Shown here: piece by piece, positions 13,301 to 49,056 of the stretch
Numbering within the stretch: position 1 is the stretch's first letter
How the letters are laid out: each line of letters begins with the position of its first letter
Source of the DNA: Siderastrea siderea
Taxonomy: Eukaryota; Cnidaria; Anthozoa; Scleractinia; Rhizangiidae
Direction of reading: 5' to 3'
Assembly (NCBI GenBank): GCA_964030785.1
Contig: OZ034967.1
Location: 43,668,533 to 43,732,532 of the forward strand
Length of the DNA: 64,000 nt
Notes under the pieces: model-generated
What the model was told of the DNA's origin: nothing
Database searches by the model: none
Seen by the model: only the letters and a program-made list of their open reading frames with translations
Made by a program: the position numbers and the translations under genes

Positions 13301-15560
13301 TATTTTTCGTATGTCACTCTTGAAATGGCATATCACCTATTGTCGTTGCATGTCACGTTTCATGCTGTTACCACAGTTGTCTAGTTTTAACCCGAACTTT
13401 CCAGTATTCTCTAGAACTGTCCAGAACATACAGAATGCGGAGTCATTTTGATAATTGTGTAATCTCTTGGAATAGTTATCAGTTATGTAATGTTACTAAA
13501 ATAGATTTCTTAGTTTCTAGAACGTCTAATGCTAAGCATATAAGCAAGCAGCTGTCAATCTTTTCAAAGAGCTTTTAGAAAGAGTTTTCAGAAACAGTGT
13601 AAGCAGTAAGTTTAGAGTTTGTTGCTGTGGCTGTGTGCCGAACATAGTAAAGTGGCTTTTCCGAGCTGTGTGCTGTGTAAGAAGAAGAGTCTGCGTGACA
13701 TCGAGGTGCTGTAAGCTGTGAATACCATTTCAGTTTGGAATAAATCTGCTTGTTGCTGTTACCGACAGCCCTGCGTTCTGTCCACAAACGAATTACACCT
13801 TAAACGAAACTCGTAACACATGCCTCTTCGAACTTTGTTATGGTTTGTTTTTGGAATAGTGGGAGCAGCAAGTAAGTTTGTTATGATTAACAACGACCAA
13901 CTGAGGCAGAACGAGAACCCAAAAAGGAAAACACTAAATGCTTTACTGGTAATCCATCAGTCTACCGCAAGCTGTGACAACTAGATAAGAGAGAAGTGGC
14001 AAATATTACTCCAGTGGAACTTCTAGCAATTAACACAATATACCTGCTTGTGCAAAAAAGCTGCGAGCATTACGAGGTCTAGTCCATCATTGCTCTTGTG
14101 GTAAGATTGGATCCTTCCCTTCGAAGCGAATTCGGGGATTAATTGTTCTGAACTTTATCTGGAGAATTCCACAAGGCGTAGGCATTTAAAGGAAAAAAAC
14201 AAAACAAAACCCGCTACTAGTGAAATCGTCGATAAAGTTGAACATTCTCAGTGCAGAGGGGCCGCGGTCAGACGAAAATGCTCACAAAACTCATACCCGT
14301 GGATTCTTGAGCTGTTTTTCCAAAAACGCTCTTTAAGTATCCACTGAATTTACTTTGGTTAGCGACCGTCAATAAAAAAGATCACTGACGGGGAACTTTT
14401 CCTATAGGCGATTTGCGGTTGAAAAAGGGGCGGAAACCGCTTTTTCGGGCTAGCAAGGAGGGTACAGAAAAAACCCTCCCTTTTTTAATTAAGAAGATAA
14501 CACATACCAATCATTTTCTCTTAGCAAGAAAAATTTCTCACTTGTTCCCTATTGGTCTTTCCACTCAAAAATAAGTTTACATTCCTTTTTATGAACTACA
14601 CATTTAGTGTCTTGGCTCAAAACGAGTTTCTTGGCTTTTTAATATATAGAGGATCCACAACGGTCTAGACGTAGAACTGGAAAACCCTGGAAACCTCCAA
14701 AACCTGGAAAACCTCCGGCAAAACCTGGAAAACCTCCAAAACCTGGAAAACCTCCGGTAAAACCTGGACCACCTCCAAAACCTGGAAAACCTCGGCGTCG
14801 ACGTCCCAGAAAAGGAGGACGTGAAAGAGGTAGAAAAGTTGGACGTAGACGTGGAGGTAGACGTGGACGCGGACGTGGACGTGGACGTGGAAAGGGCAAT
14901 AGAGGACTTGGAGGTAGAGGGGGTAAACGTGGAAGGGATCGTGGAAGTGGACGTATAAGTAGACTTGGACGTCGACGTGGACGTCGACGTGGACGCGGAA
15001 ATGTAGGACCTGGAGGCAGAGGGGGTAAACGTGGAAGGGATCGTGGAAGTGGACGCATAAGTAGACTTGGACGTCGACGTGGACGTCGACGTGGGCGCAG
15101 AAATGTAGGACCTGGAGGTAAGGGTGGATGTGGACGTGGGTGTAGCAGTAGTTATTTTCGCGGTTTTGCAAAACCATTGTCTTAATAGAGACTTTGAAGC
15201 CAACAAATAAAAGAATATTTAAAATATTAGGGAAGGAGAAGAAATCACAGTTGCATTTGCATGTAAAATGCATAGCCATTTTGTTCTCTTTAAACGAAGC
15301 ATTTCAGGCGAGGAGACCTTGAAAACTGAACCATTTTTACAAAACAATTGTCTGAATAAAATTCGAGGATGAAATCGCGTTGGACTTTTTTAAGTTCAAT
15401 ACAGCTACCATAATGCACCTCAGCCGTGTTTACTTTGTTTTCAGGTCGAGGTTCACCTCTCAAGACATACCAAGGTGACTATATTGAGAGCCCTGTGATT
15501 GGTGAAAAAGGAGTTCTCAGCCATATGGATACCATCAATGATCTTGTGGCACCACCTTAA
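4369..15560 (+). CDS. Copy 1: secreted acidic-array / Arg-Gly-rich protein lacking the peptidase exon
   Basis: Built by splice sites and phase. Exons: 4369-4429 (signal peptide, MWLMAVLLLAATVGFH), 4528-4548, 5904-5960, 6390-6419, 6995-7024, 10308-10337, 10474-10503, 10781-10810, 11070-11099, 12330-12359, 14650-15117 and 15445-15560. All introns are phase 1 and every internal exon is a multiple of three, giving 310 codons plus stop. After the signal peptide come about 90 mostly acidic residues (for example DESEDDRDEA, ESSEDDVNEP), then about 156 residues rich in Lys/Pro and Arg/Gly, then a 38-residue tail. That tail aligns with the first M15 exon of copy 2 but runs to a stop at 15558, and the catalytic exon is absent downstream. 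An exon at 11936 must be skipped because its donor is lost. It is either a non-enzymatic paralogue or a decaying gene; the intact long frame argues for the former. Exon choice is inferred without transcript data. Confidence 0.72.
7577..9513. mobile_element. 1.9-kb non-autonomous DNA element with CCGT repeats (copy A)
   Basis: It lies inside an intron of copy 1. It starts tagcggagctcgcgg and ends agctccgcttttaggcttgg, so the termini carry a short inverted AGCGGAGCT. A second copy with the same ends lies at 42862-44883. Near the left end is a run of CCGT tetranucleotides followed by agactctgggggaggg. The flanks suggest insertion at a TA. A related but shorter terminus occurs at 7199. No transposase is recognisable; the frames here come from the tetranucleotide repeat. 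Confidence 0.7.
11936..11982 (+). pseudogene. Dead acidic exon of copy 1 (donor GT changed to TT)
   Basis: A good acceptor (ttttcag) is followed by EDIDDKSTEI, matching the copy 2 exon at 26890-26913 (EDDESTEI). Where copy 2 has ATAG|GTGAG, copy 1 has ATAG|TTGAG at 11966-11967, so the donor is gone. If included, the frame reads on for five codons to TGA at 11980-11982. Because neighbouring exons are phase 1-1, skipping it leaves the reading frame intact. Confidence 0.7.
13366..13818. mobile_element. Solo LTR of an LTR retrotransposon
   Basis: The 453-bp segment begins TGTTACCACAG and ends CTCGTAACA (TG...CA with short inverted ends). It is flanked by a perfect 5-bp duplication, catgc, at 13361-13365 and 13819-13823. 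Internally there is a TATA-like catataag near 13540 and a polyadenylation signal AATAAA near 13740, in the order expected of U3-R-U5 read on the plus strand. No internal retroviral genes flank it, so it is a recombination-derived solo LTR. It sits in an intron of copy 1. Confidence 0.85.
14650..15117 (+). other. Lys/Pro- and Arg/Gly-rich exon of copy 1 with 34-residue tandem repeats
   Basis: The plus strand, not the longer minus-strand frames, is the real coding strand: acceptor ...atatatag then EDPQRSRRRTGKP. The first third repeats KPGKPP-type units; the rest is Arg/Gly-rich. A 102-bp unit (34 residues, containing GKRGRDRGSGRISRLGRRRG) occurs at 14911 and 15013, and a third copy starts at 15115. 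The donor used for splicing, GGAG|GTAAGG at 15118, is the first few bases of that third unit. Without splicing the frame remains open to TAA at 15183-15185. Confidence 0.75.
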
Positions 15561-22330: not shown

Positions 22331-22424
22331 CCTTTCGATAATTGACACCTCCGTCAACTAAAAAATGCATAAAAGGAGACTATGAAAGCAGCAATCCTCA
22401 GAGTTCAGCTTCGTTGTAATCACG
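22331..22424 (+). promoter_or_regulatory. Core promoter and 5' leader of copy 2
   Basis: CATAAAAGG at 22368-22376 is placed identically to copy 1 relative to the ATG (57 versus 59 bases). An upstream ATG at 22382 opens a frame overlapping the true start, ending in TAA in the first intron; it lies close to the expected transcription start and may not be included in the mRNA. Confidence 0.7.
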
Positions 22425-25400
22425 ATGCGCTCAACAATGTGGCTATTGGCAGTTTCACTGCTAGCAGCTACTGCGGGATTTCATGGTAAGAAAGAAATTA
22501 TTTTCTCAGTCAGTTTTTAAGTTCACAAAGTTTTGTTTTTTTAAGAGCTAGCTGACTGCTGTGCCTTATTTTTTTATTACTATTGTTTACAGCTCTGCCA
22601 GTGTCTGTGGATGGTAAGTTGAAGAAGACCCAAAGAATAACTTATTATTTGATTCAGCTCTTTCCTCTTCGTAAACTCTTCGAAGACACTTAAGTTTGAT
22701 TTACAAGGAAAAACAGTACAAAATACACAGTATGCTATCACGAAAAAATGGTGTTTTGCTTGTAAGGATGAAAAAATAGGGATTTTACAAATTTGGGATA
22801 TTTGTATATGAAAAGTGGTTCTTGGGTCTCCAATGGTTTTGACTACAGTACTTCCCTAGCCAGTTTGCGAAAAAAAATGGATCGTGACAAGAAAAAAAAA
22901 TCTTTCAAAATATGTTATCCTAGTATTTGAGGTGAAAAGATACGAATCATGCAATTTTGAGATATATGTGTGCGAAAATGATTTCTTTTGCCCCCTAGGA
23001 GAATGGATGATAGCAAGTCGTTGCATGTCTTGACAGAATCGCGCTAGGACCAAAAAACTGAAAACTCACAGTGATCTTTCTCTGAAGTTTATTAGTTTCC
23101 TTGCAAATTATTGCTCGAATCCTGGTGGATGGCAAAGGCCACCCTTATTGAATATGTTTTTGGCAAGAACAAAAAGGCAAACAAACAAATATTCATTGGT
23201 CCCACGAGCACCAAGTCGGTTCTTGGTTTGCAAGGTTTTACTTTTTTTGAAAAGCGCCATTGATTTTCTGAAATATGATGTTTAAAGCAAAAAGGCTTGA
23301 GAAACTTTCCTTTTTTTTCAGACGATGCGGTTAATGGCATAGCAGACGAACCAACGGTGATAGCAGGTAGGATAGAGAAAAGCAAATTTCGATGACCAAA
23401 TTCGTAAAACTGTGATTACTTTCGAACAAGACCATGTTGAAAAAGAACGTCAATTCTATGTCTAAAATTGAAATTTAGAACATGGTTTGTACTTAGTCGT
23501 AAAAAAAGAACGAGAACTTATTTCTCTGTTATTTGTTTCAGAGGATACAATTGACAATGAAACAGAGGAGTCTTTAGATGATCCAGAAGAAAACGGTAAA
23601 TAGACTAAATCCCATTGACAAAATTTTCACTTAAATCCCAAAAACATTACAGAGACAATAATGAATGCTTGACTCTTAGCAGACACCCCAAAACAAAAAC
23701 GCTAGTAACTTAGTGTTTCTTTTCTTCGAAGGGTAGCATGTTATTGCCAGACTAGCAGAAAAATATGCGATAGTTCTGCAAGCGCTAGAAGCTCTTATGG
23801 TTTTCAAGCTCGAATAAGGTTTCATTTCTTTTTTAAGCACCTGTGTTTGTTTAAGTCCTGATTTTCAAAGCAGGGAAGAACAATGTTATGCTTATACGAA
23901 AATATCTTAACTTTTCTACTTTCGTTATTCAGAAGATGCAGGTGATGACAAAAGAGAGGAACCCTTGGATATCGCTGCAAACAACGGTAAGATGGGGAGA
24001 CGAAACCTACGATGATCGGATAACTCAACCATATTGGTGACCTATATTTAGCCACATCTCTCAGTTCCGCGATTAAACATGTTTATTGTGACTCTCGAGT
24101 CAAATCATGTTCCAAACAACTTAATGCAGCCTAAGAACGAAATTTCTTAAAGTGGTTTATACTTTTGTAATATATAAAACGATAACTAGAACACATTTCT
24201 ATATGTTATTTTGTTTTCAGAGGATGAGATTAACGAGGAAACAGAGGGGGTTTTAGACGATCCAGAAGAAAGTGGTAAATTGACTATCTTACATCAATGT
24301 CAGCCCTGGAAACAGAATATCTAGTGAAATCCCCCCAAAAAACTAATAAATAAAAGTTTGGCTCTTGGCAGACAATCCCGCAAGCAACTTCTGATGTCAG
24401 TAATACTTACTTTATATTGAGCGATTAATGTTTGTGCTAACTAGCAGAAAACCGAACTGTATGATAGTCATACGAGCGCTAGAACATTTCGTGGTTTTCA
24501 ATCTCGCAAGATTTGATTTCTTTTGAAAGCACCTGTTTTTTTTTTTTTTTTTTTTGGAAAAGTGATGATCAAAGTAAGGAGAAAGAAATACGTTCGTTTA
24601 CACAAGTTTACCTTCACTTTCCATTTTTTTTTTAAGATGAAGGTGATGACAAAGAAGAGGAGCCATTGGACGGCACTGCAAACGAAGGTAAGATGGGGAG
24701 AAGCAAATTACGATGAACGAATAATAATATTGCTTACCCATACCCAGCCATATTGGTCTGTCATTAGTCAAGTTAATAGTGGCTTATATTACGAACAAAA
24801 TTTTGTTCCAAAAACATCAACACTGTGTCTAAAAACGAATAATTTTTTAAAAATGTGTTTTATAATTACCAATAAAAACAGAACTAGACCTTATTTTATA
24901 TGCTTTTTTTTCAGAGGAGGTGACTGATGATGAGGCAGAGCAGTCTTTAGAAGAACCAGAAGGTAAATGCAGTTAATTACATTGTTTTGGAAGCGCAATA
25001 TCTGACATAATAGTTTTATACCAGAGAATCCTGTAGATGACACATAGACGAAGCAAGTAAGATACAACATGCATAGGCTTCTAGGTCGTATATTTTATTA
25101 TAATTATTACAGTTTCTTAAGAGAACACTTGTATGATCTTGGACTCAACTCTTGAATAAACTTGCTATAATAATGTCCTTTCACTTTGCCCATGTCACTG
25201 GTTAGCGGTCCCTCACCCTCCTCTATCTTCATAAACGCGTCACGAAGTATGACTACAACTGATTTCCAATAGAATCATGCTCTGAATCTCAGGATGTAAG
25301 CCCGCGAGCTCAAGACATCATTCAGTCAGTGGTTTACCTTATAAGATAATTTCCATAAAAAGCTATCACTAAAACCTGCAAACGGGATAATTCTTGTTAA

Positions 25401-28400
25401 ACACTTTTTTTCTGACATTCTTTCATTGTTGGGGCTTCGCTGTAAGGGAAGCCTGTCTCTGTACATTATATTCACCATATTATTTATTTGTCTTGTTTTC
25501 TCAGATGAGTCTGAAAATGAGAGAGACGAAGCAGGTAACATGAAGCTCTTGAAGGATTCATACTAGCTAAGAGTTAAGATGACTAATTTTGGACAAACAT
25601 GTAGATGCATGAAACTCACTTAGCGATTAACGGAAATGCAGAGCAATCTATCTGAATCAGTGTAACTGTAAACCGTAGATGATTGTTGTACATGAAACAC
25701 AGTAACAGTTTCATTAAGACATAATCCCCATATTAGATAAAAATTAAGCTTCACTAAATTTTTTTTGTTAAATAGTTAATGGGAGGATTATTTAATACTA
25801 TTCATTTATCATATTTTTTGGCTTGTTTGTTGTTATTGTTGTTGTTATTGTTGTTGTTGTTGGTTTTAGAGAACGCTGTAAAGGAAGCAGGTAAGATACA
25901 GGTTTTCAGCTCACACAAGCAAACGTCAGTGTGGAAAGTCAAAGCGTGTTTTGCGTAAAATGTACTTTGACCATGCTCAAAACAACATATTTGGAAAGTA
26001 CACTGTATTGATAAAGCCGTCATAACCGTTTCTTGAGGGTCTAATCTAACGATGATCCATATTTTTGTTGTAAAAAGATGTGAAATGTGTCATTTGAATA
26101 GCAGCTTTCTATTTTTTTTTTCTCAGAGGATTCAGAAGATGATGCAGGCGAACCAGGTAATGTGCAACTCAGTTTATGGCCATATGTAACTGTCTTGAGC
26201 AAGCTTTATTTTGATGGTACAAGCAGTCTTTATCACAGACAATTTGACATTGGATATCTCCATGGATATACAAAGCAATGTGTGAATGAGAGTTACTCTG
26301 AAAAAATGCCAATAGACGAAACGTTCTCTTTTCTGTCTCTTTTTTTTTTCTTTTATCAAATGAATCATTTGGAGACCCTCTTTCATAACCACAAACGCTG
26401 ACATTCAATTGTATTCAATAAACTGAGAGACAATATGTAGTTTAAATTAACCCCGAGTAAGTGTTGATGCTTGGAAAGTTCTCTACCTTGCAGTGTTAAT
26501 ATACACCGTATAAAGAATAGAAATCCAACTCAAGATCTTCCCAAGAGGCTATATGCATAGAGGAAAGCGACACGCGCAAAGCTAGGAAATTTCAGTTTTC
26601 GAATGATTGACTTTTTTATGCAGATTCTCCAGAAGAAGCGGTTAAAAAATTTCATGCTCCACTTGAATTTGTTTGACAATAAATAATTACAGGTTGACAT
26701 GGCAGATATTCAATCGATGACGGAAATGCACAGCGATATATGGATCAACGCTACTATGCCAAACGACTGATTCTGAAAATTTAACTTTCTGAAGACAAAG
26801 CACAAAATAGGATTTCTTTGTGAACTAATCCTTAATCTAGCATACTTTTGGATAACAAAATGATGACTCCTTTTCATTTTTTTTTTCAGAGGATGACGAA
26901 TCAACTGAGATAGGTGAGAAGAAGTTTTAAGTTTTTGAAGCCATCCTGATCTGAAAACGTAGAAAAAATAACAATGCCTTTCTCCTCAGTTTTTGCAATG
27001 GGAAAATGGAATTTAAAGTAACGTTAATGAGAATTGGGCACGCTTCTGTGAATCAACACAATTAGAGTTGAGAAGTTGGATTGTTATTAACCTCAAAGAC
27101 TGGGTGAATGACACGTTCTACAAAAGTTCCAAGAACTCATTATCGCATCTCTTTCATATATATTTCTCTTGCAAATATGATCTGATAATTGGTCCCAGCA
27201 ACGCTAGGAAACGTTAGTGACCAATGTCATGCAATCTCTTTTGAGAAAGCATGTTTCATTAAAACGGACAATTTATACCATTACTTCTTTCTATTTTCGT
27301 TTTTCAGAAGCTGTTGAAGATGAGCCTAATGAAAGAGGTAAGGTCTCAGTCAAACAGATGCAACTTCATTCATTGTTGTCGTATGCAACTTTCGTTGCGC
27401 GAGATTATTAAACCAGATGCCAAATTCTTAACACCAACCTTGTAGCAGCATGCAGCGAACATAAGAGGCCAGAAATGGTGTGCAGTTATGTAGCGCTTCC
27501 AGTACTTTACGTCGAGTGTAAGTGTGACTTCTAGCGTTGTCTCCATTATATTCCACTCGGGATAGGCTATTTTAAGTAAAGCCTTCAGTGAATCAGAAAC
27601 CACAAGAACAGAAATCTTGAACGCCACTCGTTTTGAAAGTGCGAAAAATCGCCATGATATTCCCCTAGGGTTTGTGTTATTTATCGCTAAAATGATGCTC
27701 AACATATTTGTTTTGCCAATATATTGGCTAAAATAGCTGGGGAAGTGTCGCTGCAACATCCGTAATACACAACATTCAAACTCGTGGCTCACTGTTGGTG
27801 AAAATAACGAAGAAACCAAATTGCACCAAACGTTCTTAACATATCATTGAGCTCAACGAAGTTGAAAGGTTTTAAACAATTTCGTTTATTGAGACGAAAA
27901 ACAAATTGACATGTATTTCACAGATTTCACCCTCCACTCACCACAATATTACACTAAGAAGGCCAGAGTCACAGCTGCCCAAATCATGAGGGAGTCCCTG
28001 TTGTCAGTATATTTGACATTAAGAAGCTGATAGAATAAATTTAGTGAGCCCAATGTGATTGGTCTGCGAACCCTAGTATGCACACCCTGGGAACGTTTGA
28101 TTCCCCGAAGAACAAGCTGCAGGCGAAAAAATTTGGAGAGGTTCAAGTCAAGACCATTGCTAGAGTGGTGGTGTTTTACTGCAGATAGATAAGTTTTAAT
28201 AGTACTATGTTGAACTGAACGGGCCATGCAGACCGAAAAGTTTATTAAGGTATCCTCATCGAGGGGGAGCTTAGGAGAAAACCTTGTTTGTGAGCAAAAG
28301 GCATAGAATTGTCGCACACCAGAACTATATGCTTTCTTAGTGTTATGAGAAAGCGCCATACCCAGGTAATACTTAGCTTCCCTATTCAAAGACTGTGCAG

Positions 28401-31400
28401 GTGGGCAGGGATAGGGTCTGGAGCTGCATTGGACTGAGGGGCTAGCTGACGAAAACGCTCCATCTATGGTATATATATATATATAGCTAATGACTGACGT
28501 GCGGCTGCCCGGTACGAAAAACCCTAAAAAACCCTGTGGGAAAAAATAGGGAACGTACTCTCCAAACCGAAGGCTGAGCGCACTACCCTTGGAGATAGGG
28601 CCAGTCAAGTACCAGATTAAGTGTCAAGTCTAACCACAGGAAGCCCAAGCTAAGGTTGAGAGCTGCGCATAAATTAGACTGTTTTTTCCACGCTATGCAT
28701 AATAATGACATCGGCAACATTTAAGAGTTTGTATGGAAATGCTACAAAACGTCTCAAATTGCCACAAATCAGAAAGAAGTCGAAATAAAAAAGATTTGTC
28801 TTATTTCATTGTTTTATTGGTCATTATTGGAGGGCTTCCTGGGCTGGTTTGCAGCTTTTTGGGCGAGAAATTGAGGTTTATATTTTTCATCAGTTACTGA
28901 ACGTTAAGAATTAATTAAAGGCAGGAAACAGTTTCACACTGCACCTCACTTGAGGTTCAATAAATTCCATCACAATAAACGAATCGCCCTACAACTTCAA
29001 AGGTGTATTCTTGGGTCTTGCGCATACCTCTATTCTTTCTCATGGGTTCCAGATCCTATTTTAAGCCGTCGAAAATCCCTCTAAAATACGAAACTCGCCT
29101 TTCCTGGTATGCGTTTTCATTTGAAGTGCACACATGAATCATTGCGAGCCGCGTTTCGACGACAAAATGTCCCTCAGCCGGGGAGAGGATGAGTGAGATT
29201 GTCCACAAGCAGAAGGCGACACTGCGGAGTCCAGAGAGGTCGGTTCGAGGGAAATAGAAAACTATCGGCACGCCCGTGAAATTTAGTCGCCTCACTTGAC
29301 GCCACGAGTACGCTTTAATGTCTTCGTGCGGCAATATATTAGCATAGTGATTTGTTCCGTCACATTACCTGTTTACCGCTAAAAAAATGTTGTCGAAATT
29401 TAGAAGCAGAGACGAGGAGCAATTTCCATCTAGAAAAAAAATTGCACTGGCCTTTCAAAGGAATGGAAATTGTGTTGGGAATTTTCCACGGTCACAGCAA
29501 TATTTTTTTTTAGGGCAGACAACCCTATATATGGGAATTAAATAATGAGGTTGATTTGCGGGCAGTGAGCAGGATCACTTGCGCCAAATACTCGGCATAA
29601 AATCATCGAATGGATTGATTAGAGTGCAGCAAAAGATAGTTCTTCGTTCGTCCCTAAAACGAAATAATGGTTTTCCAAGTCAAGTTAGGCGAGTGAATTT
29701 CACGGCCGCTCTAATATTTCTCTATTTCTGTAAACCGACCTCTCTGGACTCCGCAGTGTCGTGTTTGCTAATGTCGACAATCTCACTCAGCCTGTCCCCG
29801 GCTGAGGGACATTTTGTCGTCGAAACACGGCTCGCAATAATTCATGTGTGCACTTCAAATAAAAACGCATACCAGGAAAGGCGAGTTTCGTATTTTAGAG
29901 GGATTTTCGATTGCTTAAAATAGGATCTGGAACCAATGAGAAAGAACAGAGGTATGCGCAAGACCCAAGAATACACCTTTGAAGTTGTAGGGCGATTCGT
30001 TTATTGTGATGGAATTTATCGAACCTCAAGTGAGGTGCAGTGTGAAATTGTTTCCTGCCTTTAATTAATTCTAAACGTTCAGTAACTGATGAAAAATATA
30101 AACCTCAATTTCTCGCCCAAAAAGCTGCAAACCAGCCCAGGAAGCCCTCAAATAATGACCAATACAACAATGAAATAAGGCAAATCTTTTTTATTTCGAC
30201 TTCTTTCTGATTTGTGGCAATTTGAGACGTTTCGTATCATTTCCATACAAACTCTAAAATGCTGCCGATGTCATTATTATGCATAGTGTGCTGATCTCAT
30301 TATTATGCATAGCGTGGAAAAAACAGTCTATGCGCAGCTCTCAACCTTAGCTTGGGCTGCCTGTGGTCTAACATATGTTTACATGTGTAAGTCCATATAT
30401 AGAAGGTAATGTCCTCAGCTGCACTGTCCATTGAGCAACACCAAGGTGTGACAAAGGTAATCCAGCGGCTGGTAGCAGGATAGACGAACATCTTCAAGAT
30501 AGCTCACATGTGCAAAACAAGATAACAAAACAATAGATGAGAGGAAAGCAATGGTATTGGTCCACTGGGACCGGATATAGCCATATGACGATAAACTGAA
30601 AACAGTAACACCTTAGATATCGCATGGCATTAACACCTGGACGACAAAAAATTGGCCACCCGGTAAGACAGATCAAACGTCAAAAATCGTATGGCGGCCG
30701 ACCCGTGTGAGAGTATGGGAAAAGACAAAAATAATACTCCAGTTGTAAATGGAAGACGAATGTATAAAAAAAAAATAACTACCAAAGCGAAGAGAAAACA
30801 ACGTAACGCTAATGGAGACAACATATGGCAGCAAAGCGCTAATTGGCACATAACTTCGCCAAAACATAAATATTAGCTGCGAGTATTCATCGCTAAAATG
30901 TAGCGAAGCAAAGGTGATATATATCTGAGCAAAAGAGATACTTTGATCGGAGAAAAGGGGCATTTAATGACTTGTTTACGCAAGTGCAAGCGATAGTAAT
31001 CTTTGTAAAAGGAACGTTGGCATGAACCCGAGTGATAACTAAACTAAGAGAATATGGGATAACCGACCGGTAGAAACTGTCAACGACGAACGATAGAAAT
31101 CGATACAGCGTGACAAGAAGAGCATAGAGACTTTAGTATTATGCTCCTAAAACTTACTTATTATTATTATAAGAAAGCTGACGTCCATTGGGTAACTGTA
31201 ATTTACTTGTTCCAATAACGTGACGGCAGTAGGAACCAAAATAGAGTAACAATAGGTAGCCAAATAACAATGATACTCTTCCAGACGGTTGAGCCGTGAG
31301 ACGTAATCACCCGATCTGACGATGAGACTCAAAACCCACGGTAAACAAATTCCCAAGCCGAGGGGAGACAACCTAAAGCTTTGATCGTTTGGCATTGGCC

Positions 31401-34400
31401 AAATAAGGTTAGACTAACACTATCTACGAATGACAGGTTTTGACCGCGATTCCTCTGGTGACCCGAGATTGAGATCGAAATGGGAACGAAGTTAAACACC
31501 ACACTGGACCGACAAACAGAAAGAGGAAAACGGGAATCGGGGAAAAAGTATAAAGAAGACTTTAAAAAACACAAGGGAGTAAAGCCACGAAATATTAAAC
31601 CGCTAGCGAGGGCGAAAGGGTCATGCACGTAAACAAGCGTCCGAAAGGGAAATACGAACGAAATAAAAAGACAACTACATCAAGAAAACGGGAAGACTAA
31701 TTCTGTACCCCAACAATTTAAGCTTAGACAGTCTTAAATGTGTTATACAAACCTGCGATCGAGCGGGATGGACAATCCCAGAGAAGAGAACGGCACGGAA
31801 CAGCGGCGGGGAGCCGTGGGGTCACGCGGGCTTGGAGAAGAAAATCGTCTTCAGTCGTCGGCGTAGTTGTTGCGGTCAAAGTTGCAAGGAGGCTCATTTC
31901 CCTTTACGCAATGTCAGAGGTGGCTATAAATAGCAGCCAACTGTCGATGAAGATGTTCACCTTCTTCTTAAAAAACCTTGTGATAGAAGACTCAAGAACT
32001 GTAGCTAAATATAAAATGTGCGTGATCGCTGATTGGTGACAAAACTGTTTCTTTTCGTTCGACCCCGTCGGGGCAAAATGTCGTGTTCCTCACCGAACCA
32101 AGGTTCCCTTCAACGGTGTAACAACGGCAGAGGAAAAATGGCATCAAGTGGCAGGCTATTGAGACGAAGTGAAAGGATCTCGCAGGAAAGAGGAAGGCAC
32201 GTACTTGGCTTGAGCAAGGGAAACGACTCTGTTGACCAGCCACGGGCGGCGACGAACATTCCTTGCGGGTGAATTCCATCGTGCGTAGCGCTGTATTAAA
32301 CGGTGTTCTAAGTAAAACTTGGATTATGACGATGTGCCAGTCAGTTTCAGCGGGGAAAATTAACAAAATAGACGACTAACTTCTTGAAAACAGTTCTGAC
32401 TACAGTGTTGCTCGTGTTAAAACTGAACGAAGACAATATGAGCATTGAATATACTCTTACAAAAGGCCTGATGCTATTGGTCAACTGACGGTGGGTTTCC
32501 TGGGGTACTCACGTGAAAAGATGGCATAAGGTAGATTACTGGACAAAGTTCGAAGCTCAAACAAGAGTTATTGATTAACTGAAATTTATTTCTTATGATC
32601 AATAAATTGTGATAACGACCTTGGTTACAATATTCCATTAAAAGGAAAGTGTTTATTAAACACCCAGGCATTACGTACACAGTGTACTACGGAGTATACA
32701 TTAAGACTTTAAAAAACATTGAGATACATAAAAGATGTTAACACTTCACACTGGACAGAATTCTCCCTCATCCATTGACATCATTTACACGCAACACAAT
32801 ATACTTTTCTAAATTTATTGTTTCCTGCAAAAAAGGATAAAATTCACTTTTGCTATAAGGATAAGAGAAGAAAAATATGATAAAAAGTTTCACTATTCTC
32901 ATAAGATTTTGAATGCCTGACTTAATACATCAAGGAATTTAGGAGGATCTTAAAATCTGCCAAGTGGGGAGACGTTCCAACCATCCCTCCTTCATCCTTA
33001 CAACAATAGGGAATATGACTTAATTGGTTCGTCTGAGGGTTGACGTCACAACTCTCGGGAATGACTGAGTCTATTTTCACAAGCATTTTTACTTTTTATG
33101 ATTTTTCATTGACTGTTTAATACGTCATAACTCTTATTTGATTACTATTTTCAGAAGATACGGAGGATGAACTAAGCGAACTCGGTGAGAAGCGCTTTAT
33201 TTGTTCTTTTGGTCTTAAATCAATTGCAGTTGCAAAGTATTGTTTTTCCCTCAATCGTGCTTTACTATATTATATGGTCGGGATTGTTTTGCTACGAACA
33301 ACGACCAATTGTTCAACGGTTTACTGGTAATCCGGCCGTCAATTTACTGCAAGCTGTAACTCTAGTGGAACTTTCAGCAATCAACGCAATATACAAGCTT
33401 GTGCAAAAAAAAAAGTGAAGTGAAATTAAGAGGTCTCGTCCATTATTGCTCTTGTGGTAAAATTTAACCCTTACCTTCCACAGCAAGACGTGGATTAACT
33501 GTTCTGAACGACATTTAAGCAAAAAAAACAAAAGCAGTTACTAGTTTGATATTACAGAGGGCAAAATTACTGATTGCTGATTGGTCAAGACAGAGGGCCT
33601 TTTTTTTCTTAATTTTCTTTCAAAACGAGGGCAAAATTACTGACTCTTTATTGGCCAAGTGCCAAAATTACTGCTATTTGATTGGCTGAGCGCGAGAGCG
33701 CGCCATTTGCATTTGCCATAACACTGAGAGGGAACTTTCCGAAAGGCGATTTGCAGTTGAAAAGGGGGTGGAAACCGCTCTGTGCCAAGAAAAGTGGATG
33801 AAAAACATTCCCTTCAATCAATGAATACGTCCTTGAAGTAAAACCAATTTCTCACTAGTTCCCCGCGCTTTTCTCGCTTTCGTTTAATATATTTTTGTTC
33901 TTTAACGACAAAACTAGAAGCTTGCGTAATAACGATGTTTTGGCTTTTAAATATAGACGACCCACAACGGCCTAGACGAAGACGGGGACCACGAAGAAAA
34001 TCTCGATCTGGACGTCCTGGACGAGGACGACGCCCCAGACAAGGAGGATCTAAACGGGGTAGAAAACCTGGACGTCCAGGAAGACCACGGCGTGGAGGAC
34101 GACCCGGAGGTAGCGGTGGACGACGTAAAAGTAGACGTGGGCGCGGACGTGGGAGCGGACGTGGGCGTAGACGTGGGCCGGGCGGTGGACGACCTGGAGG
34201 ACCTGGAGGTAACGGTGGACGACGTAAAAGTGGACGGCGACGCGGACGTGGGCGTAGACCGGGAGGTGGACGTCCTGGAGGTAGTGGTGGACGCGGACGT
34301 GGCCGTGGACGTGGACGTGGACGTGCAAGTCGTAAGTGACGCAGTTTTTGCGAAAACCTTTGTCTTCCTAAAGGCTCTGAAGCCAACAAAATAATATTAA

Positions 34401-36193
34401 AAAATTAATAATAACAGCGAAACAAAAGAAATGATACAAGTTGCGTGTAAAATGTATGGCCATTTTCTTTTCTCCAATTAAAGTATTCCAGGGAAGGAGA
34501 CCTTGAAAATGAACTATCTTGTCTATCGTATTTTCAAAAAAAATGAGGCAATAAAAAGTGTGCATGAAATCGCATTGAACTTGTCAAGTTCAGTATAACT
34601 ACCGTGGTGCACTTTTGGCGTGTTTTAGAAAACAAACATCGCATTAGAAAGTTAACAAGCAGACCTTAATACGATTTGTGGGGAATTGTAGGGCCTCACA
34701 GTACCCTGGTTTGCTTCGATTTCAGGTCGACGAGGATCGTGCCCTCTCGTGACATACCAAGGTTCCAATATTGAGAACTCTGTACTCATTGAAAGCGGAT
34801 TTAGGAGCCATATGAACACCATCAATAGTTATGCCAGAAATTGTGGAGTAACGGTAGGTTGGTTGGTTGGTTGATTTGTTTGTTTATTTGTTGCTTTTTT
34901 ATTTGTTGGTTGGTTGGTTGGTTTTATCCAAACGACGCTTTACTTGATCCACCGCGAGAAGGGAGGGCGGGCTGTGTTCAAACATGACGTCACGTCACCA
35001 CCAAAACCAAAACCAATACCAGCATAGCCAAACCAACACCAAAGTAACAAACCAGTCAATCGCAATGGACACAAACATCACAAAGAGCCAACCATAGGTG
35101 GTCGAAGCAAATAAATGTAAATGGTCTCAAGCTTAGGAAAACGAGTTCGAGCAAGTCACCTTTCAATCATTTTGAAAAAGCTGATTCACTGAGATATTCT
35201 TTTCATTTTTATAACGCAAAGAAACCTCACTGCTTAAACCTCTCTTTTATGTAAGCGCTTAAAAAGTAGTCTTTTTCCTGTAAATATTCCAAGGATAACA
35301 AATTCAGAATGACTCGAGTTCTTGCACATACCTAAAATTTCGTAAGAGGGTAAATTACGTTTTCTCTGACCTTTTGGAATATTTTTTAAGTGCTTGGCAA
35401 CAGAAGAAGATCAGGGTTTTTTCCAGTTGTTTTTCTCCGGGGGACGGGATTTGAATGCTCGGGACTTGTCCCATGTTTCAGTTTTTTTAAACTAAATATT
35501 CCTTTGCATTTAATTTCTTTTCAGTTTTAACCTTTGGCACGCTCAATGAAAATCTTTATTTATAAAACAAATTCCGCCACAACGGACGTGTCACTTAATA
35601 AATACAATATGAACAAAAACTATTAATTACGATAGTGAACGCTTAATGAACAAGGAAAGACATCTGTTAGAAAACAAAAAAAACCTTGGAAGCTTTCAAC
35701 GAACGATGTCATTGGCCAGTTAAAGGCGTCTGTACCTAATTGCATCAGTTCCTGTGTATAATTTAGACGTACAACCAAACGAAAGGCTAGCTTAAAAAAC
35801 TTGTCCATGCATCCAGCGAGCATCTTGCCTTAAAAGGACAAAGTTCAAGAATTTAGTTTAGATTTTCATTTAATTTTCATTTTTTTTTCTTAGCTGTATG
35901 TGACGTGGGGTTACAGGGAGTCGGGTGCGACCCATAGCAACCACAAGGTGGGACATGCGATTGACATGAACACGAGGGAAACACCTGGCGGGAGTTTGTG
36001 CACATGGAATTGCCTGCTTAATCCAAGGGGGAAAACAAAGTGCTTCATCGACGCAATCAAAGCTAATCCAACTCTTCGTTGGGGCGGGGACTTTTCAAAC
36101 AGGGACCCGGTTCACATTGACGACAATTTATGGTTTAGGAACCCTACTTTGTGGAACCAGCTTCAAAGCCAACTAAGGCCTGTCTGCCCTTGA
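22425..36193 (+). CDS. Copy 2: secreted acidic-array / Arg-Gly-rich / M15-type peptidoglycan peptidase
   Basis: Seventeen exons assembled from splice sites and phase: 22425-22485, 22593-22613, 23322-23366, 23542-23595, 23933-23986, 24221-24274, 24637-24687, 24915-24962, 25505-25534, 25870-25890, 26127-26156, 26890-26913, 27308-27337, 33155-33184, 33957-34331, 34726-34853, 35894-36193. Total 1356 nt, 451 residues. Residues 1-20 form a signal peptide (MWLLAVSLLAATAGFH). Residues 28-184 are acidic, one short motif per exon. Residues 185-310 are Arg/Gly-rich. Residues 311-451 form an M15-like zinc peptidase domain. All introns are phase 1 except the last (phase 0). Every internal phase-1 exon can be dropped without a frameshift. 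Introns carry transposons, the largest between 27338 and 33154. Known M15 enzymes cleave peptidoglycan stem peptides; secretion and charge make an extracellular antibacterial role plausible but unproven. The exon at 24637 uses a weak acceptor (tttaag). Confidence 0.8.
25009..25056 (+). pseudogene. Pseudo-exon of the acidic array in copy 2
   Basis: After a weak acceptor (tataccag) the phase-1 frame reads ENPVDDT then TAG, and the expected donor GCAG|GTAAG has become GCAA|GTAAG. An equivalent stretch with the same stop exists in copy 3 near 42108, so the exon died before those two copies separated. Confidence 0.55.
27915..28390 (-). pseudogene. Tyrosine recombinase remnant (DIRS/Crypton-like)
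   Basis: On the minus strand about 145 codons resemble the N-terminal SAM-like domain and start of the catalytic domain of retroelement or Crypton tyrosine recombinases: ALSHNTKKAYSSGVRQF, then STIKTYLSAVKHHH, then the catalytic-domain entry IWAAVTLAF. Just after this a TAA interrupts the frame, and similarity resumes briefly as YCGEWRVKS before being lost. The catalytic Arg, His and Tyr are not present. It lies in a large intron of copy 2, directly beside the inverted repeat at 28629. Confidence 0.7.
28486..28497. repeat. TA dinucleotide microsatellite
   Basis: A short run of TA units (tatatatatata) at the junction between the recombinase remnant and the sequence to its right. Confidence 0.6.
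28629..30371. mobile_element. Large inverted repeat with 0.7-kb arms
   Basis: Left arm 28629-29300 and right arm about 29678-30371 are near-identical reverse complements around a unique loop of about 380 bp. Outer ends read gtctaaccacaggaagccca on the left and, reverse-complemented, gttagaccacaggcagccca on the right. Both arms encode the same stretch (GHFVVETRLA, ERRVSYFRGIFD) outward from the centre. The right arm has a small internal duplication (attattatgcatagcg). A clear target duplication could not be found. Candidate long-TIR transposon or foldback. Confidence 0.75.
30372..33150. other. Remainder of the giant copy 2 intron; no exon recognised
   Basis: The stretch contains several mid-size frames on both strands but none with a recognisable family motif. 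Around 31740-32280 composition is richer in GC and holds frames on both strands, which could be an eroded mobile element. No splice-flanked acidic exon of the array is seen until 33155. Confidence 0.35.
33560..33705. repeat. Imperfect tandem repeat with three ATTGG (CCAAT) boxes in the intron before the Arg/Gly exon
   Basis: The unit gggcaaaattactga...ttggtc/ttggcc/ttggct recurs at about 33560, 33627 and 33662, giving GATTGGTC, TATTGGCC and GATTGGCT. The unit before copy 1's Arg/Gly exon is not obviously present. It could be a local duplication or an internal CCAAT-type promoter feeding the last three exons. Confidence 0.45.
33957..34331 (+). other. Arg/Gly-rich exon of copy 2
   Basis: A 375-nt exon between acceptor ...aaatatag and donor AGTC|GTAAGT, phase 1-1. 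It encodes about 125 residues almost wholly Arg, Gly, Pro, Lys and Ser with repeated RGRGRG and GRPGG units and few other residues. The first residues DDPQRPRR match copy 1 (EDPQRSRR). The regular GGACGT codon pattern creates long open frames on every strand; only the spliced plus frame is taken as real. Confidence 0.75.
34726..36193 (+). other. M15-like zinc peptidase domain of copy 2 (two exons)
   Basis: Exons 34726-34853 and 35894-36193 joined by a phase 0 intron. The domain contains SNHKVGHAIDMN (H369, D376), LRWGGDF and DPVHID (D423, H426). In the M15 family the pattern SxHxxGxAxD supplies two zinc ligands, and the later WGGD...DxxH supplies the catalytic acid and third ligand, so all expected active-site residues are present. 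Six cysteines (two in the first exon, four in the second) suit an extracellular fold. The closest general resemblance is to phage and bacterial endolysin-type M15 domains; eukaryotic relatives are known to occur sporadically. Confidence 0.82.
34856..34922. repeat. GGTT/GTTT microsatellite
   Basis: Runs of ggtt and gttt tetranucleotides immediately after the donor at 34854. The same position in copy 3 (46121-46192) carries a longer GGTT run, so the repeat predates the copy 2/3 split. Confidence 0.8.
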
Positions 36194-36420
36194 AAATTGG
36201 AACGATCTACCGGGACACGTGAGAGGCGAAAACCCTGGATACAAAAATAAAATGGTGTAACTTAAAATTAAGTCCAAGCTTTTTCAACGCGCCGTTAAAT
36301 TTAGTTGAGTATAGGCTTTTTAATTGTAGGTTGTTCAATCGCGCTTTGCCTGTAATAAGAACCCTAGTTTTTAATCTGCTTTGACTGCTTTAAACAGTGT
36401 ATTTGCAAGTACAGTAAACA

Positions 36421-38577: not shown

Positions 38578-39440
38578 GCTAAAAAATTTTCCCAATGGCC
38601 TATTTCAAACGTTTTTAAAGAAAGCGTTGGTAGTTGTGTTCTCAAAAAAGAGTTTGAAATGATCATGAATATGTAAACAGCATGTCATGGTCCTTTATGG
38701 TTTTCTCTAATTTTTCTTCCATTCGCTGTCCTCTTTGCAAAGAATGCGGACAGGAAACTTACATCAGTCTTTTTTCCTTTAATATGTCGCGTTATTTCAG
38801 GCGAACTGTCCTTCTTTTTTGCGGCATGGCTGGTTGAAGTTCAACATTGCTTAGGTAGGTGGAAATGAAAATATTCCCTTCCCCTTCCATTTCAAATAGC
38901 CTATTTAAAACTTTTTGAAAGAAAGGATCAGATTACTCTCCTGGCCAGTTTTCGAAAAAAATCGATCATGACAAGCAAAAACCCCTTTCAAAATACGTTA
39001 TCCTAGTATTTGAGGTGAAAAGTTACGAATTATGCAATTTTAAGATATATGTGTCCGAAAATTAGTTATTTTGCCCGCTGGGAGAATGGACGATAGCAAG
39101 TCGTTGTATGTCTTGACTGAATCGCGCTAGGGCCAAAAAACGGAAAACTCACAGTGATCTTTCTCTATAGTTTATTAGTTTCCGTTTGTAAATTATTGTT
39201 CTAAGCCGATGGAAGGGAATGGCCACCCTTATTGAATAACTCTATGGCAACACCATACATGAACTCAAGGTTGAAGTAACATTTTAAAAGAAAAAAATAC
39301 AGGCAAACAAACAAATATTCATCTGTTCCACGAGCGCCAAGTCGGTTCTTGATTTGCAAGGCTTTACTTTTTTGAAAAGCATCATTGGTTTTCTGAAATA
39401 TGATGTTTAAAAGGCTTGAGGGACCTTCCTTTTTTTTCAG

Positions 39441-40072
39441 ACGATGCGGTTAATGTCATAGCAGAGGAACCAACGGTGATAGCAGGTAAGACGTGGAGAA
39501 GCCAGTTTCGATTACCAAATTTGTAAATCTGTGATTACTTTTGAACAAAACCCATGTTGAAAGAGAACGTCAATTCTACGTCTAAAATTGAAATCTACAG
39601 GCAAACAAACACACGAGCGCCTAGTCGGTTCTTGATTTGCAAGGCTTTATATTTTTTAAAAGCACCATTGGTTTTCTGAAATACGATGATTAAAGCAAAA
39701 AGGCTTGAGGGACCTTCCTTTTTTTTCAGACGATGCGGTTAATGACATAGCAGAGGAACCAACGGTGATAGCAGGTAGGATGGGGAGAAGCAAATTTCGA
39801 TGACCAAATTAGTAAAACTGTGATTACTTCGAAGAAACCCATGTTAAAAAAGAACGCCAATTCTATGTCTAAAATTGAAATTTACAGGCAAACCTGAAAC
39901 AAATATTCATCTGTCCCACGAGCGCCAAGTCGGTTCTCGAATTGCAAGGCTTTACTTTTTTGAAAAGCACCATTGGTTTTCTGAAATATGATGTTTAAAA
40001 GGCTTGAGGGACCTTCCTTTTTTTCAGACGATGCGGTTAATGTCATAGCAGAGGAACCAACGGTGATAGAAG
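39441..40072 (+). repeat. Triplicated exon-intron unit (about 290 bp)
   Basis: The 45-nt exon matching copy 2's exon 3 (reading AEEPTVI) occurs three times at 39441, 39730 and 40028, each with its own acceptor, donor and the flanking intron phrase gtcggttcttg...ttgcaaggctttac. Copy 2 has it once. Spacing is 289 and 298 bp, so duplication was tandem and recent. Confidence 0.85.
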
Positions 40073-40911
40073 GTAAGATGGGGAGAAGCAAATTTCGATA
40101 ACCAAATTCGTAAATCTGTGATTACGTTCGAACAAACCCATGTTGAAGAAGTCACTTCTATTACTAAAACTGAAATTTAGAAGATGGTTTGTACTTTGTA
40201 GTAAAAACATAACTAGAACTTATTTCTCTGTTATTTTTTTTTCAGAGGATACGACGATGAAACAGAAGAGTCTTTAGATGATCCAGAAGAAAATGGTAAA
40301 TAGACTAAATCACACTGATATTAGAACTGGAAACAGAATTTCCACTTAAATCCCCCCTCCCAAAAAAAAACCACACAAAAACAATAATGAATGCTTGGCT
40401 CTTAGCAGACACCCGAAACCAAAAACGCAAGTAACTTAGAGTTTCTTATGTTACGAGAGAACAGTGTTCTTGCCAAACTAGCAAGAAAAAATAAAATGCA
40501 CTAGTTTTATGAGCGCTAGAACCTCTTGTGGTATTCAATCTTGTAAGATTTTATTTCTTTTCTAAGCACCTGTGTTTGTTTGAATCCTGATATCCAAAGC
40601 AAGGAAGAGGAATTGTATGTTTATAGGAAAATATCTTCACTTTCCTTCTTTCGTTATTCAGAAAATGCAGTTGAGATGGGGAGACGAAAACTTCGATGAT
40701 CGAATAACTCAACCGTATTGGTGATCCCTATTGAGCCATGTTCCTTCCGTTATTAAACATGTTAATCGTGACTCTCGAGTCAAATCATGTTCCAAACAAC
40801 TTTACGCAGCCTAAAAACGAAATTTCTTAAAGTGGTTTTTACTTTTGTAATATATAAGAAGGTAACTAGAACACATTCCTATATGTTATTCTGTTTTCAG
40901 AGGATGAGATT

Positions 40912-41373
40912 CAGGGGCGGATGCAGAAAATTCAGAAAGAAGGGGCCGAAGAAATTGTGGCGAGAGCGCCCCTCCCCCCCTCCCCCCCCAAATGAAAAAT
41001 TCACGTTCGTGGAGATCCATTCTGAGAGCATTTCTGACCAAAAGTTATGGCTTCGAAAGAGAGACTTTAAGAGCATTTTTTTTAACGATTTGTAAAACGA
41101 AATCTTAACGGTAGTGGTAACTAAACTATTTACAGAGTCATCCCATTGCATTCATACATCCTACGATGATAACTGGAACTAAACCACTGTGGAGGATTGA
41201 AGAGTGTCGTCCCTCTCTGGTTACGTTTTGCAAAGTCGTAAATAATAGCATTATACTTGCGAATAAAGAGCAGCAACAGTGCAGACGGTTGGTTAATATA
41301 AAAACTTTCTTAAAATACAAGAAAAAAAGGTGGGGCTGCGGCTTCCTCGGCCCTCCCCCTAAATCTGCCCCTG
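40912..41373. mobile_element. 462-bp DNA transposon insertion with hAT-like CAGGGGC ends
   Basis: The element starts CAGGGGCGGATGCAG and ends AAATCTGCCCCTG, which are inverted, and is flanked by the 5-bp duplication agatt (40907-40911, 41374-41378). Removing it and one repeat restores the exon exactly as in copy 2 (aggatgagattaacgagg). CAGGGG termini are common in hAT elements, but the 5-bp duplication leaves the superfamily open. Confidence 0.85.
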
Positions 41374-42861
41374 AGATTAACGAGGAAACAGAGAAGAAGA
41401 AAGAAGAAAGTGGTAAATTGACTATCTTACATCAATGTCAGCCCTGGACACAGAATATCAAGTGAAATCCCAGAAAACTCACAAAAACTAAATAAAAGTT
41501 TGGCTCTTGGCAGACAATCCTGCACGCAACTTAGTGCTTCTGATGTCAGTAATACTTACTTTATTCGAGGGATTAATGTCGGTGCTAACTAACAGAAAAC
41601 CGAACTGAATGATAGTCCTACGAGCGCTAGAACGTTTCGTGGTTTTCAAGATCGTGAGATTTTATTTCTTTTGAAAGCACCTGGGTTTGTTTGAAAAGTT
41701 GTATTCAAAGCAAGGAAGACTCGAAGGAGAAAAAAATTGGTTTACACAAGTTTGCCTTTACTTTCCATTTTTTTTTTCAGAAGATGAAGGTGATGAGATC
41801 GAATAATACTGGCATATTACTAACCCATGATCAGCTATATTGGCCTGTCATTAGAAAAGTTTAAATCATCGCTTACGAACAAAAGTTTGTTCCAAAAACA
41901 TCAACTCTGTGTCTTAAAACGAAATTTTATAAAATGTTTCATAATTACTAATAAAAACAGAACTAGACCTTATTTTATATGCTTTTTTTCAGAGGAGGTG
42001 ACTGATGATGAAGCAGAGCAGTCTTTAGAAGGTTCTCAAGAAAATGGTGAATTCACTTAATTACTTTGATTTTGGAAGCACAATATCTAACCTGATAATT
42101 CTGTACCAGAGAATCCTGTAGATGACACATAGACGAAGCAAGTAAGATACGGCATGCATAGGCTTCTAGGTCGTATATTTCATCATAGTTATTACAGTTT
42201 CTTAAGAGAACACTTGTATGATCTTGGACTCGACTATAATAATGTCCTTTCACTTTGCCCATGTCACTGGTTAGCGGTCAGTCACCCTCCTCTATCTTCA
42301 TAAAGGCGTCGCGAAGTATGACCGCAACTGATTTCCAATAGAATCGTGCTCCAAATCTTAGGATGTAAGCCCACGAGCTCGAGACGTTACCTAGTCAGTG
42401 GTTTACCTTAGAAGAGAATTTCCATATTAAGCTATCGCTAAAACCTGCACAAGGGATAATTCTTATTAAACACTTTTTTCTGATATTCTTTCATTGTTGG
42501 GGCTCGGCTGTTAGGGAAGCCTGTCTCTGTACATTATATTCACCATATTGTTTATTTGTCTTGTTTTCTCAGATGAGTCTGAAAATGAGAGAGACGAAGC
42601 AGGTAACATGAAGCTCTAAGGATTCATACTAGCTAAGCTTTAAGGTTACTTATTTTGAACAAACGTGTAGATGCATGAAACTCACTTAGCGATTGATGAA
42701 AATGCAGAGCAATCTATCTGGATCAGTGTTACTGTAAACCGTAGATGTTTGTTATACATGAAACACAGTAACAGTTTCATTTAGAAATAATTCCCCTATT
42801 AGATAAACATTAAGGTTCACTAAGTGCTTTTTGTTAAATAATTAATGGAAGGATCATTTAA

Positions 42862-44883
42862 TAGCGGAGCCAGCGGGCAAAGCCCGCCAGCGGAGCTCCA
42901 TTGCTAAGGAAATTTGGTAAACTATCAATCCAAGAAATTTTGGTTCTGACGTAATAGTCACGTGACCGTCCGTCCGTACGTCCGTCCGTCCGCACAGACT
43001 CTGTGGGAGGGGTAGGGAAGTCCCAAGACAATCCGACGGGGGTAGGGAATGCCATCTTTTCTTGGCGGGAAATGGCGCGGTACTTTTGGGCAACCAGCGT
43101 TTTTCTTGGCCGGGAAATCGCATAACCATCGTTGCGTTTGAAAAAGAGGTTTCTTTAAAAGCTTCAGCTTCTTTAGCATTTAACAATTGCTCGAGAGTAC
43201 TGAAGTTTTATACTTGACAAAAAAAAACATGTAATATCTATAAATGGAAAGAAAAAGTTCAAAAGAATACTGGTAGAAGGCGAAAAGTTCAAGTTACGAA
43301 AGCTGCATTCAAAGGACTTCATCGCTTTGCTTTTCTTCACGGCGGAGAGTTTGCCCTGTTCTGAAACACAACTGAGTAAGTGAAGTTTTTAAAGGGTCTA
43401 AGGTACATGATTTCGAGTATTGCGATGAAAGAAATTACGTTTTGAAATGGTCATTTACTTTTGACTTTAAAAAATTATTAGAAAACGCGCTCAGATTTGT
43501 GACAGATTCTTGAATATTTTGCCATGCTCAGCCGATTTCACTCGCTTGGACCGACCTACGATTTTGGAAGTGTAACGCGAATGGCATTTAAGTATAAACT
43601 TACAGGTTTTCGAATAAACTTTTTTCAAAAATGATTTCTCTGTCCATTATTTTGTGTTTGTTTATTCATAACAGTAGGTCTAAGCACAGCCGCAAGACAA
43701 CTAACTGCACAAGCTTTGCTTTCAATTTTGACTGTCCGGTCCATCTCTTTGTGCAACTGTCGATTTTCTTGTCCTAGACGTTTTCAATAGTAATAATCTT
43801 TTAAGCGAAGCAGTTGTCGGTTTACAGCTATTTTATCCCAAAAGCTTCCGAAAACAGTTTTGTGCGTTCCTTCACATCCGCAAAACGTATGCCGGCATTA
43901 TTTAATTAAAGCGTATTTGGCGTTTTTTCTTTTTTAATCTTGATGGTCTCTAGTTAGAGAACGAAATATAACAGTTATTTGAAAAACTATAAGCGAAGCA
44001 GTTGTCGGTTTAAACCTATTATATCCGAAAAGCTTCCAAAAACAGTTCCGTGCATTTTTAAAAGCGCTCGAATTTCAGACAATTTGCAGCCGCAAAACTT
44101 ATGTCACAGAGTTAAGAATGTTTGGACGGTGTTTGTTTGTTTGTCTTCAATCTCGATGGTCTCAAGTTAAAGAACGAAATATAAGGGTTACTTAAGTAAC
44201 TATAAGCGGAGCAGTTTTGAGTTTAAAGCTATTTTATCCGGTAAGTAATGTGTGTTCCTCAAAGTGCTTGAATTTTTTTGCGGCTGCTAAAACCTACGCG
44301 ACATTTCTTCAATAAGTTTATTACAAGTGCTTCGAAGCTCCCCAGATCCTTTCTTTCGGGTAGTCCCAGTAAAATGCCGGTGAAAGGTCAGTATAAATTT
44401 TGGACCAGACTAATATTTTTATTTAGTAGCAGTTCATGTTATTTGTTAACATCCGAACGCGATGAAGATAACCCATTTAAATACTCGAATAATTTTTATT
44501 TTGTTTTTGTAAATGAGCGCCGTTTCAAGTTCATTCAAGCGAACAGCCAATAATCAAAGGAGATTTGACAAGCCTTGACAGTTAATGACAGGATATAGAA
44601 ACATTGCAAACACCAAGCAAGACGGCTCGTGAGTAAAATAATCAAGCTGTGCTCAGCCTCTAGAATGACCTTTCGAGCTTGGTTTTACAGAACAGATCCC
44701 CAAAATATTGGAGGACATTTCGGAACACTTTCAGGCTTTTTGAGAAACACTTTTCGAAAGCGAACGAGACAAAAAAAGCCCCGAAATATATTTCAGACCG
44801 AAAAGTTTCAGGACTATTTTTGAGAACGAACACCGGTTTATTCCTTCGCGGCTCCGCTTTTAGGCTTGGCTAAATCTATATAT
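42862..44883. mobile_element. 2.0-kb non-autonomous DNA element with CCGT repeats (copy B)
   Basis: Starts tagcggagccagcgggcaaa and ends gctccgcttttaggcttgg then ctaaatctatata, the same termini as 7577-9513. The CCGT run and agactctgtgggaggg tract are shared; the middle has diverged and contains three imperfect repeats of ataagcgaagcagttgtcgg. The intron of copy 2 near 25798 preserves the empty site (tttaatactattcattt), indicating TA-targeted insertion. Confidence 0.75.
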
Positions 44884-49050: not shown

Positions 49051-49056
49051 GTTGGC

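Follow-up and report, generated by a model that had tools for sequence, protein, structure and literature searches.

A tandem gene array in the coral Siderastrea siderea that joins an acidic exon array, a polycation and an M15 peptidase: a possible secreted antibacterial proprotein

The stretch of 64,000 nucleotides analyzed here (the window; contig OZ034967.1, positions 43,668,533 to 43,732,532 of assembly GCA_964030785.1 of the coral Siderastrea siderea) holds on its forward strand a probable gene at 22425-36193 that joins a signal peptide, an acidic exon array, an Arg/Gly polycation and an M15 peptidase domain in this order. We call this gene copy B. It is a complete member, with all parts, splice sites and catalytic residues, of a five-copy tandem array (Z, A, B, C, and D, all on one strand) that was found by self-comparison and in the flanking sequence. 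A sequence-only reading of the window had described a 17-exon, phase-consistent chain, and our independent re-reading reproduced it exactly: 17 exons and 451 residues, GT...AG borders in all introns, every element at the same coordinates and a stop codon ending at 36193. That reading had overlooked the five-copy array and the fact that the Arg/Gly type of polycation is found only in this array, with a Trp/Pro-Arg type in copy D and in Porites.

Exon 1 of copy B (22425-22485) contains the start codon and the signal peptide, and copy A has the same exon. Signal peptides were judged by eye and are clear in copies A, B, and D and in the related proteins P0012, P0018, and P0024. The acidic array follows in exons 2-14 (22593-33184), each of which has a length that is a multiple of three and runs from phase 1 to phase 1, with AG before it and a final G ahead of GT. 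Exons 2-7 are at 22593-22613, 23322-23366, 23542-23595, 23933-23986, 24221-24274, and 24637-24687, and exons 8-14 are at 24915-24962, 25505-25534, 25870-25890, 26127-26156, 26890-26913, 27308-27337, and 33155-33184. The mostly acidic stretch behind a signal peptide that had been described earlier is present, with 82 Asp or Glu in 164 residues, and so is the Arg/Gly polycation. The latter is exon 15 (33957-34331, 125 residues); counted over 127 residues, this part has 54 Lys or Arg and no Asp or Glu. The first M15 exon is exon 16 (34726-34853), and exon 17 (35894-36193) is the catalytic M15 exon with the stop. Phase 1 applies to all junctions as far as the first M15 exon, and phase 0 to the last one. 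No cysteine occurs before the M15 part in the models of copies B and D. A TATA-like CATAAAAGG lies in an upstream block (22360-22387, forward strand) that is kept between copies A and B in their alignment and may act as the promoter of copy B. An AATAAA at 36246-36251 is a possible polyadenylation signal, and an ATTAAA at 34396-34401, in the intron after the Arg/Gly exon, might mark the end of a copy B form without the M15 domain.

The acidic exons were evaluated by scanning for phase-1 to phase-1 mini-exons with at least 30% Asp or Glu, with the reverse strand and 30 first-order Markov simulations per stretch as controls. The scan gave 10 exons in copy B, 7 in A, 5 in C, 4 in Z, and 1 in the scanned part of D. 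There were none in an 11.8-kb control stretch (48200-60000) and none on the reverse strand of all six stretches, and the simulations averaged zero (0.0 for copy B) except for copy C (0.03). A stricter first scan yielded seven acidic exons in copy B, none on the reverse strand and none in 10 simulations. Ten of the 13 exons 2-14 were recovered. Four of the 14 exons ahead of the Arg/Gly exon (the signal exon, E2, E3, and E10) were missed because they are not internal or are less than 30% acidic; these four rest on their splice sites and on the paralogues. An extra acidic exon near 26624 was rejected by eye, as its sole donor is poor and violates the phase rule. In copy C, the third exon and its flanking intron are repeated three times in tandem (39285-40179, 84-90% alike), a hint at how acidic exons may multiply. 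Related insertions with short GTCC repeats lie within the acid-exon regions of copy A (7570-9500) and copy C (42863-44876), and one of their ends is about 80% alike.

The Pfam M15_4 profile (PF13539) matches residues 364-428 of copy B with 34.5 bits against a cut-off of 25, which agrees with the earlier assignment to this family, and the catalytic exon scored 38.4 bits in the genome profile search. All the zinc and catalytic positions that had been read from the letters are kept: copy B and all of the 21 animal rows have Arg, H-x6-D, and D-x-x-H, which are also invariant in a 16-row alignment. These positions comprise the zinc ligands, the catalytic acid and the arginine of M15 peptidases. Some of the roles are those given in PMC6027127. 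Foldseek placed a structure model of P0012 nearest to phage and bacterial L-Ala-D-Glu peptidases (Ply500, LysB4, LysECD7, and ChiX). A sequence search of solved structures gave one chance match to an antibody (E 0.96), a profile search of them gave none, and NCBIfam returned no family for each of four proteins.

The other copies are in different states of preservation. Copy A (4369-15185, forward strand) has its signal exon at 4369-4429, acidic exons, and a cationic exon from 14650 that is Pro-Lys and then Arg/Gly; this exon has its own stop at 15185 and an AATAAA at 15206, and a remnant of the first M15 exon (15445-15540) stands without a following second exon. Copy Z (L008), to the left of the window, also has acidic exons and an Arg/Gly exon that ends in a stop of its own, and its M15 part shows by eye a frameshift and a lost zinc histidine. 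Copy C (38934-47117, forward strand) is a probable pseudogene; its two M15 exons (45992-46119 and 46813-47117) are mutually out of frame, and no match to the signal exon or the Arg/Gly exon was found in it. Copy D (L006) lies 48 kb downstream of copy B, at 84268-92552 on the window scale, and is complete with 12 exons and 270 residues. It has the same order of parts as copy B, and its polycation, GDPWWWSRRKTPKPRPRPRPRPVPPVPRPR, is of the Trp/Pro-Arg type. In searches covering the 830-Mb genome, P0018 gave four matches (D, B, C, and Z) and Pfam gave three (B, D, and C), each among 27 scored candidates. Within the stated limits of the search tool, no further M15 genes of this kind were found outside the array.

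The joining of the parts is best seen in P0012, a protein of 253 residues that is 97% identical to copy D over the 144-residue M15 query region. It matches the copy D model exon by exon, with all parts joined at the modelled junctions. Copy D spans 8.3 kb and the contigs of P0012 are at most 1,440 bases long, so P0012 likely comes from spliced RNA. It is short by exactly two whole acidic exons of copy D (17 residues), and the acidic exons therefore appear to be cassettes, either through splicing or through a species difference. P0018 (longest contig 1,442 bases) and P0024, a predicted Porites lutea protein deposited as ‘uncharacterized protein’, also have a signal peptide, an acidic part, a Trp/Pro-Arg polycation and an M15 domain. 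The polycation and M15 domain are in one chain in P0012 and P0018, whose contigs are too short for the copy D introns. The earlier proposal that the parts are joined in RNA holds for copy D through P0012, while for copy B it stands as a gene model. Other relatives have an M15 domain without a polycation (P0013, P0015, and P0025) or a short Trp/Pro-Arg part plus M15 (P0027). Of the 81 candidates from the search with copy B, 11 reached E 0.001 or better, the top one at 48% identity, and the six of these 11 that were examined lack an Arg/Gly part.

The M15 enzyme itself is not new, as its sequence clusters with those of rusticalin, an animal family described before. This family comprises secreted M15 proteins with two Cys-rich repeats; tunicates, lancelets, a placozoan and the stony coral Alveopora are reported to have them (PMC6339383, PMC7379824). 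Our tree contained 43 rows: 13 coral-type, 8 rusticalin-type, and 22 bacterial-type, the last chosen from the matches. Named rows were 3 of the 11 coral-type database rows (Desmophyllum pertusum, Porites lutea, and Stylophora pistillata) and 4 of the 8 rusticalin-type rows (Ciona and Clavelina), and the rest were sorted by sequence. The coral-type and rusticalin-type rows separate from the 22 bacterial-type rows with a support of 99/97, and the coral rows form one group with weak support (62/79). Like the coral proteins, which are predicted to be secreted, rusticalin is a secreted animal protein with a C-terminal M15/MD peptidase near the phage A500 L-Ala-D-Glu peptidase; in PMC6339383 it is considered to derive from bacteria or phage, and an antibacterial role is proposed. 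It differs in having two Cys-rich, beta-defensin-like repeats before the enzyme, where the coral proteins have the acidic array and the polycation. The coral proteins were not filed as rusticalin because both repeats are absent. No described protein of this architecture had been known to the sequence-only reading. This stands for the N-terminal half and for the combination but not for the M15 domain, which belongs with rusticalin, and we found no description of the architecture in the open-licence literature, represented mostly by titles and abstract openings. The novelty lies in an acidic propiece and a polycation of variable composition that stand in place of the Cys-rich repeats.

The polycation was compared in six precursors. 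It has 10 to 69 Lys or Arg, with no Asp or Glu in five of the six and three in copy A. Its letters vary (Trp/Pro-Arg, Pro-Lys, and Arg/Gly) while the charge stays, indicating that charge is what lasts, and this fits a surface-binding or membrane-active part. The net charge is -22 to -76 for the acidic part and +10 to +66 for the cationic part. The whole proprotein is at -19 to +21, with a loose correlation between acid and base charge (r = 0.54, n = 6), which rules out a strict balance; the ‘charge-neutralised’ proprotein proposed before is not borne out. The acid/base boundary has a D-P pair and two adjacent arginines in all six precursors, and D-P also occurs within the acid arrays. Every cationic exon (33957, 14650, and the one in L006) opens with Asp-Pro, a possible processing site. 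Asp-Pro bonds are acid-labile.

Selection was estimated from the paralogues. The M15 parts of B and D gave dN 0.44 and dS 0.84 (ratio 0.53, Fisher p 0.003 with rounded counts), corresponding to mild constraint and fast change. The B-C ratios of 0.33 and 0.52 mix a whole copy with a probable pseudogene. Better conservation of exons than introns between B and C was discarded as weak, because the identities are 0.91 and 0.88 and the exons have more gaps. The Arg/Gly exons of A, B, and Z share one frame, and 16 of 18 alignment gaps are multiples of three; of the other frames, one has 11-12 stops in each copy and the third has 0, 4, and 1 in B, A, and Z. A third-codon excess was rejected as proof of selection on this exon, with differences by codon position of 59/43/46 (A-Z), 48/37/44 (A-B), and 40/18/44 (Z-B). 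The only sign of selection on this exon is then its kept frame, a pattern that six-base repeats could also produce by slippage.

We suggest that copy B encodes an antibacterial proprotein that is secreted and in which the polycation brings a peptidoglycan peptidase to bacteria in the manner of an artilysin, and we give this reading an even chance of being correct. The signal peptide would send the proprotein to the secretory route, where the acidic cassette-exon array would keep the polycation inactive and packed. A cut close to the acid/base boundary would release a polycation-M15 protein; the polycation may then bind and loosen the anionic bacterial surface and hold the M15 domain there, and the domain would cut wall peptide bonds, probably of the L-Ala-D-Glu type. 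The model builds on the observed gene structure, catalytic residues, fold class, tandem family and spliced relative of copy D, and the arrangement of parts shared by copies B and D, P0012, P0018, and Porites lutea P0024 speaks for it. An acidic propiece before a strongly basic defence protein is also found in the precursor of eosinophil major basic protein, which has an unrelated fold and no peptidase. The likeness to an artilysin was drawn because charge is kept despite changing letters and because a cationic-peptide fusion of LysECD7 is much more active: a SMAP-29-type peptide fused to this M15 lysin changed the minimum inhibitory concentration from >1 mg/mL to 50 μg/mL in one strain (PMC7175214). 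LysECD7 (8q2g) is among the nearest folds to the P0012 model. Artilysins and SMAP-tagged LysECD7 share with the coral protein the fusion of a cationic peptide and a wall-cutting enzyme, but they are man-made, and in PMC7175214 the SMAP tag is C-terminal and there is no acidic propiece. The likeness to cnidarian antimicrobial precursors that had been pointed out before was found again. Precursors of Hydra arminin and periculin have a signal peptide, a bipartite distribution of opposite charges, tandemly clustered paralogues and fast change, according to PMC10945409; they are short peptides without an enzyme, and the likeness is one of organisation.

Several results weigh against this reading. 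With the P0012 model, Foldseek gave no match at E 0.001 or better, the fold likeness is modest, and Hedgehog chains score almost as high as the peptidases. No transcript of copy B was found, the spliced relative P0012 being one of copy D, and the search with copy B found no Arg/Gly relative outside the array. A furin site was rejected as the common processing site, as the boundary has none in D and P0012, and in P0018 and P0024 none lies nearby. Antibacterial activity, secretion and cleavage of the proprotein are predictions. In copies A and Z the polycation remains after loss of the enzyme, so polycation and enzyme need not act jointly. The same observation makes a serious rival of the idea that one gene gives two products: a free antimicrobial peptide, which would be the polycation released at basic sites or produced on its own through retention of the intron behind its exon, and an M15 enzyme that acts separately. 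In A and Z the Arg/Gly exon has its own stop with an AATAAA behind it, some relatives carry M15 but lack a polycation (P0013, P0015, and P0025), and in B and D the frame meets a stop right behind the donor (RK-stop), followed in B by the ATTAAA. However, a stop behind the GTAAGTGA donor is expected from the donor itself, copy D has no polyadenylation signal behind its polycation exon, and the only spliced relatives found, P0012 and P0018, hold polycation and M15 together. We regard this rival as somewhat unlikely.

The enzyme might instead be digestive, degrading bacteria eaten by the polyp, with the charged parts serving granule packing or mucus retention. The enzyme class is the same, and a placozoan lysozyme is active in extracellular digestion (PMC12855814), but a Trp/Pro-Arg or Arg/Gly part that outlived the enzyme in two copies is left unexplained, and we consider this unlikely. 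A structural pair, in which the polyanion and the polycation assemble into a coacervate, glue, mucus or skeletal matrix with M15 as a passenger or matrix-modelling enzyme, would suit the low-complexity segments, which are long, repetitive and opposite in charge and drift in sequence but not in charge, and the predicted disorder of the acidic part. The 33 cationic residues of copy D and P0012 are little for a matrix, however, and the active site is kept in all 21 animal rows examined, which makes this explanation improbable. We give the least credence to a decaying or silent copy B, in which the family is real and the Arg/Gly exon is a functionless expansion of a DNA repeat. Of the five copies, three are broken or incomplete, RNA for B was not found, the Arg/Gly exons lack a third-codon excess, and no counterpart of them was seen elsewhere; yet copy B retains all its parts, splice sites and catalytic residues, and its Arg/Gly exon is in frame with those of A and Z.

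If the antibacterial reading is correct, an animal has evolved the fusion of membrane-active cation and wall-cutting enzyme that lysin engineers make, with a built-in acidic guard. An enzyme-armed class would be added to the coral antimicrobial precursors, which bears on how corals control their bacteria. More tentatively, and with less than an even chance in our estimate, corals may have built natural artilysins in steps: a wall peptidase captured from bacteria first acquired a Trp/Pro-Arg peptide, next a leader of acidic cassette exons and, in the array, an Arg/Gly polycation that later outlived the enzyme. Candidates for the steps are M15 alone (P0015 and P0025), a short Trp/Pro-Arg part with M15 (P0027), acid with Trp/Pro-Arg and M15 (D, P0012, P0018, and P0024), acid with Arg/Gly and M15 (copy B), and acid with Arg/Gly only (copy A). 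These are known as sequences and are not ordered in time. Such a stepwise assembly of a fusion protein would be testable in living relatives.

The array also contains possible traces of mobile DNA. The 5.8-kb intron of copy B before the last acidic exon (27338-33154) has a tyrosine-recombinase-like open reading frame (27949-28623, reverse strand; PF02899, 22.5 bits with a cut-off of 22.3) and two copies, 90% alike, of an inverted repeat of about 690 bases (28633-29300 and 29679-30367). Between copies C and D, at about 60700-64000 and continuing beyond the window into L004 and L005, there is an apparent virus-like mobile element with long intronless open reading frames in L005. An open reading frame in the same region (62713-63444, reverse strand) has a weak, below-cut-off match to PF02481 of 17.7 bits.
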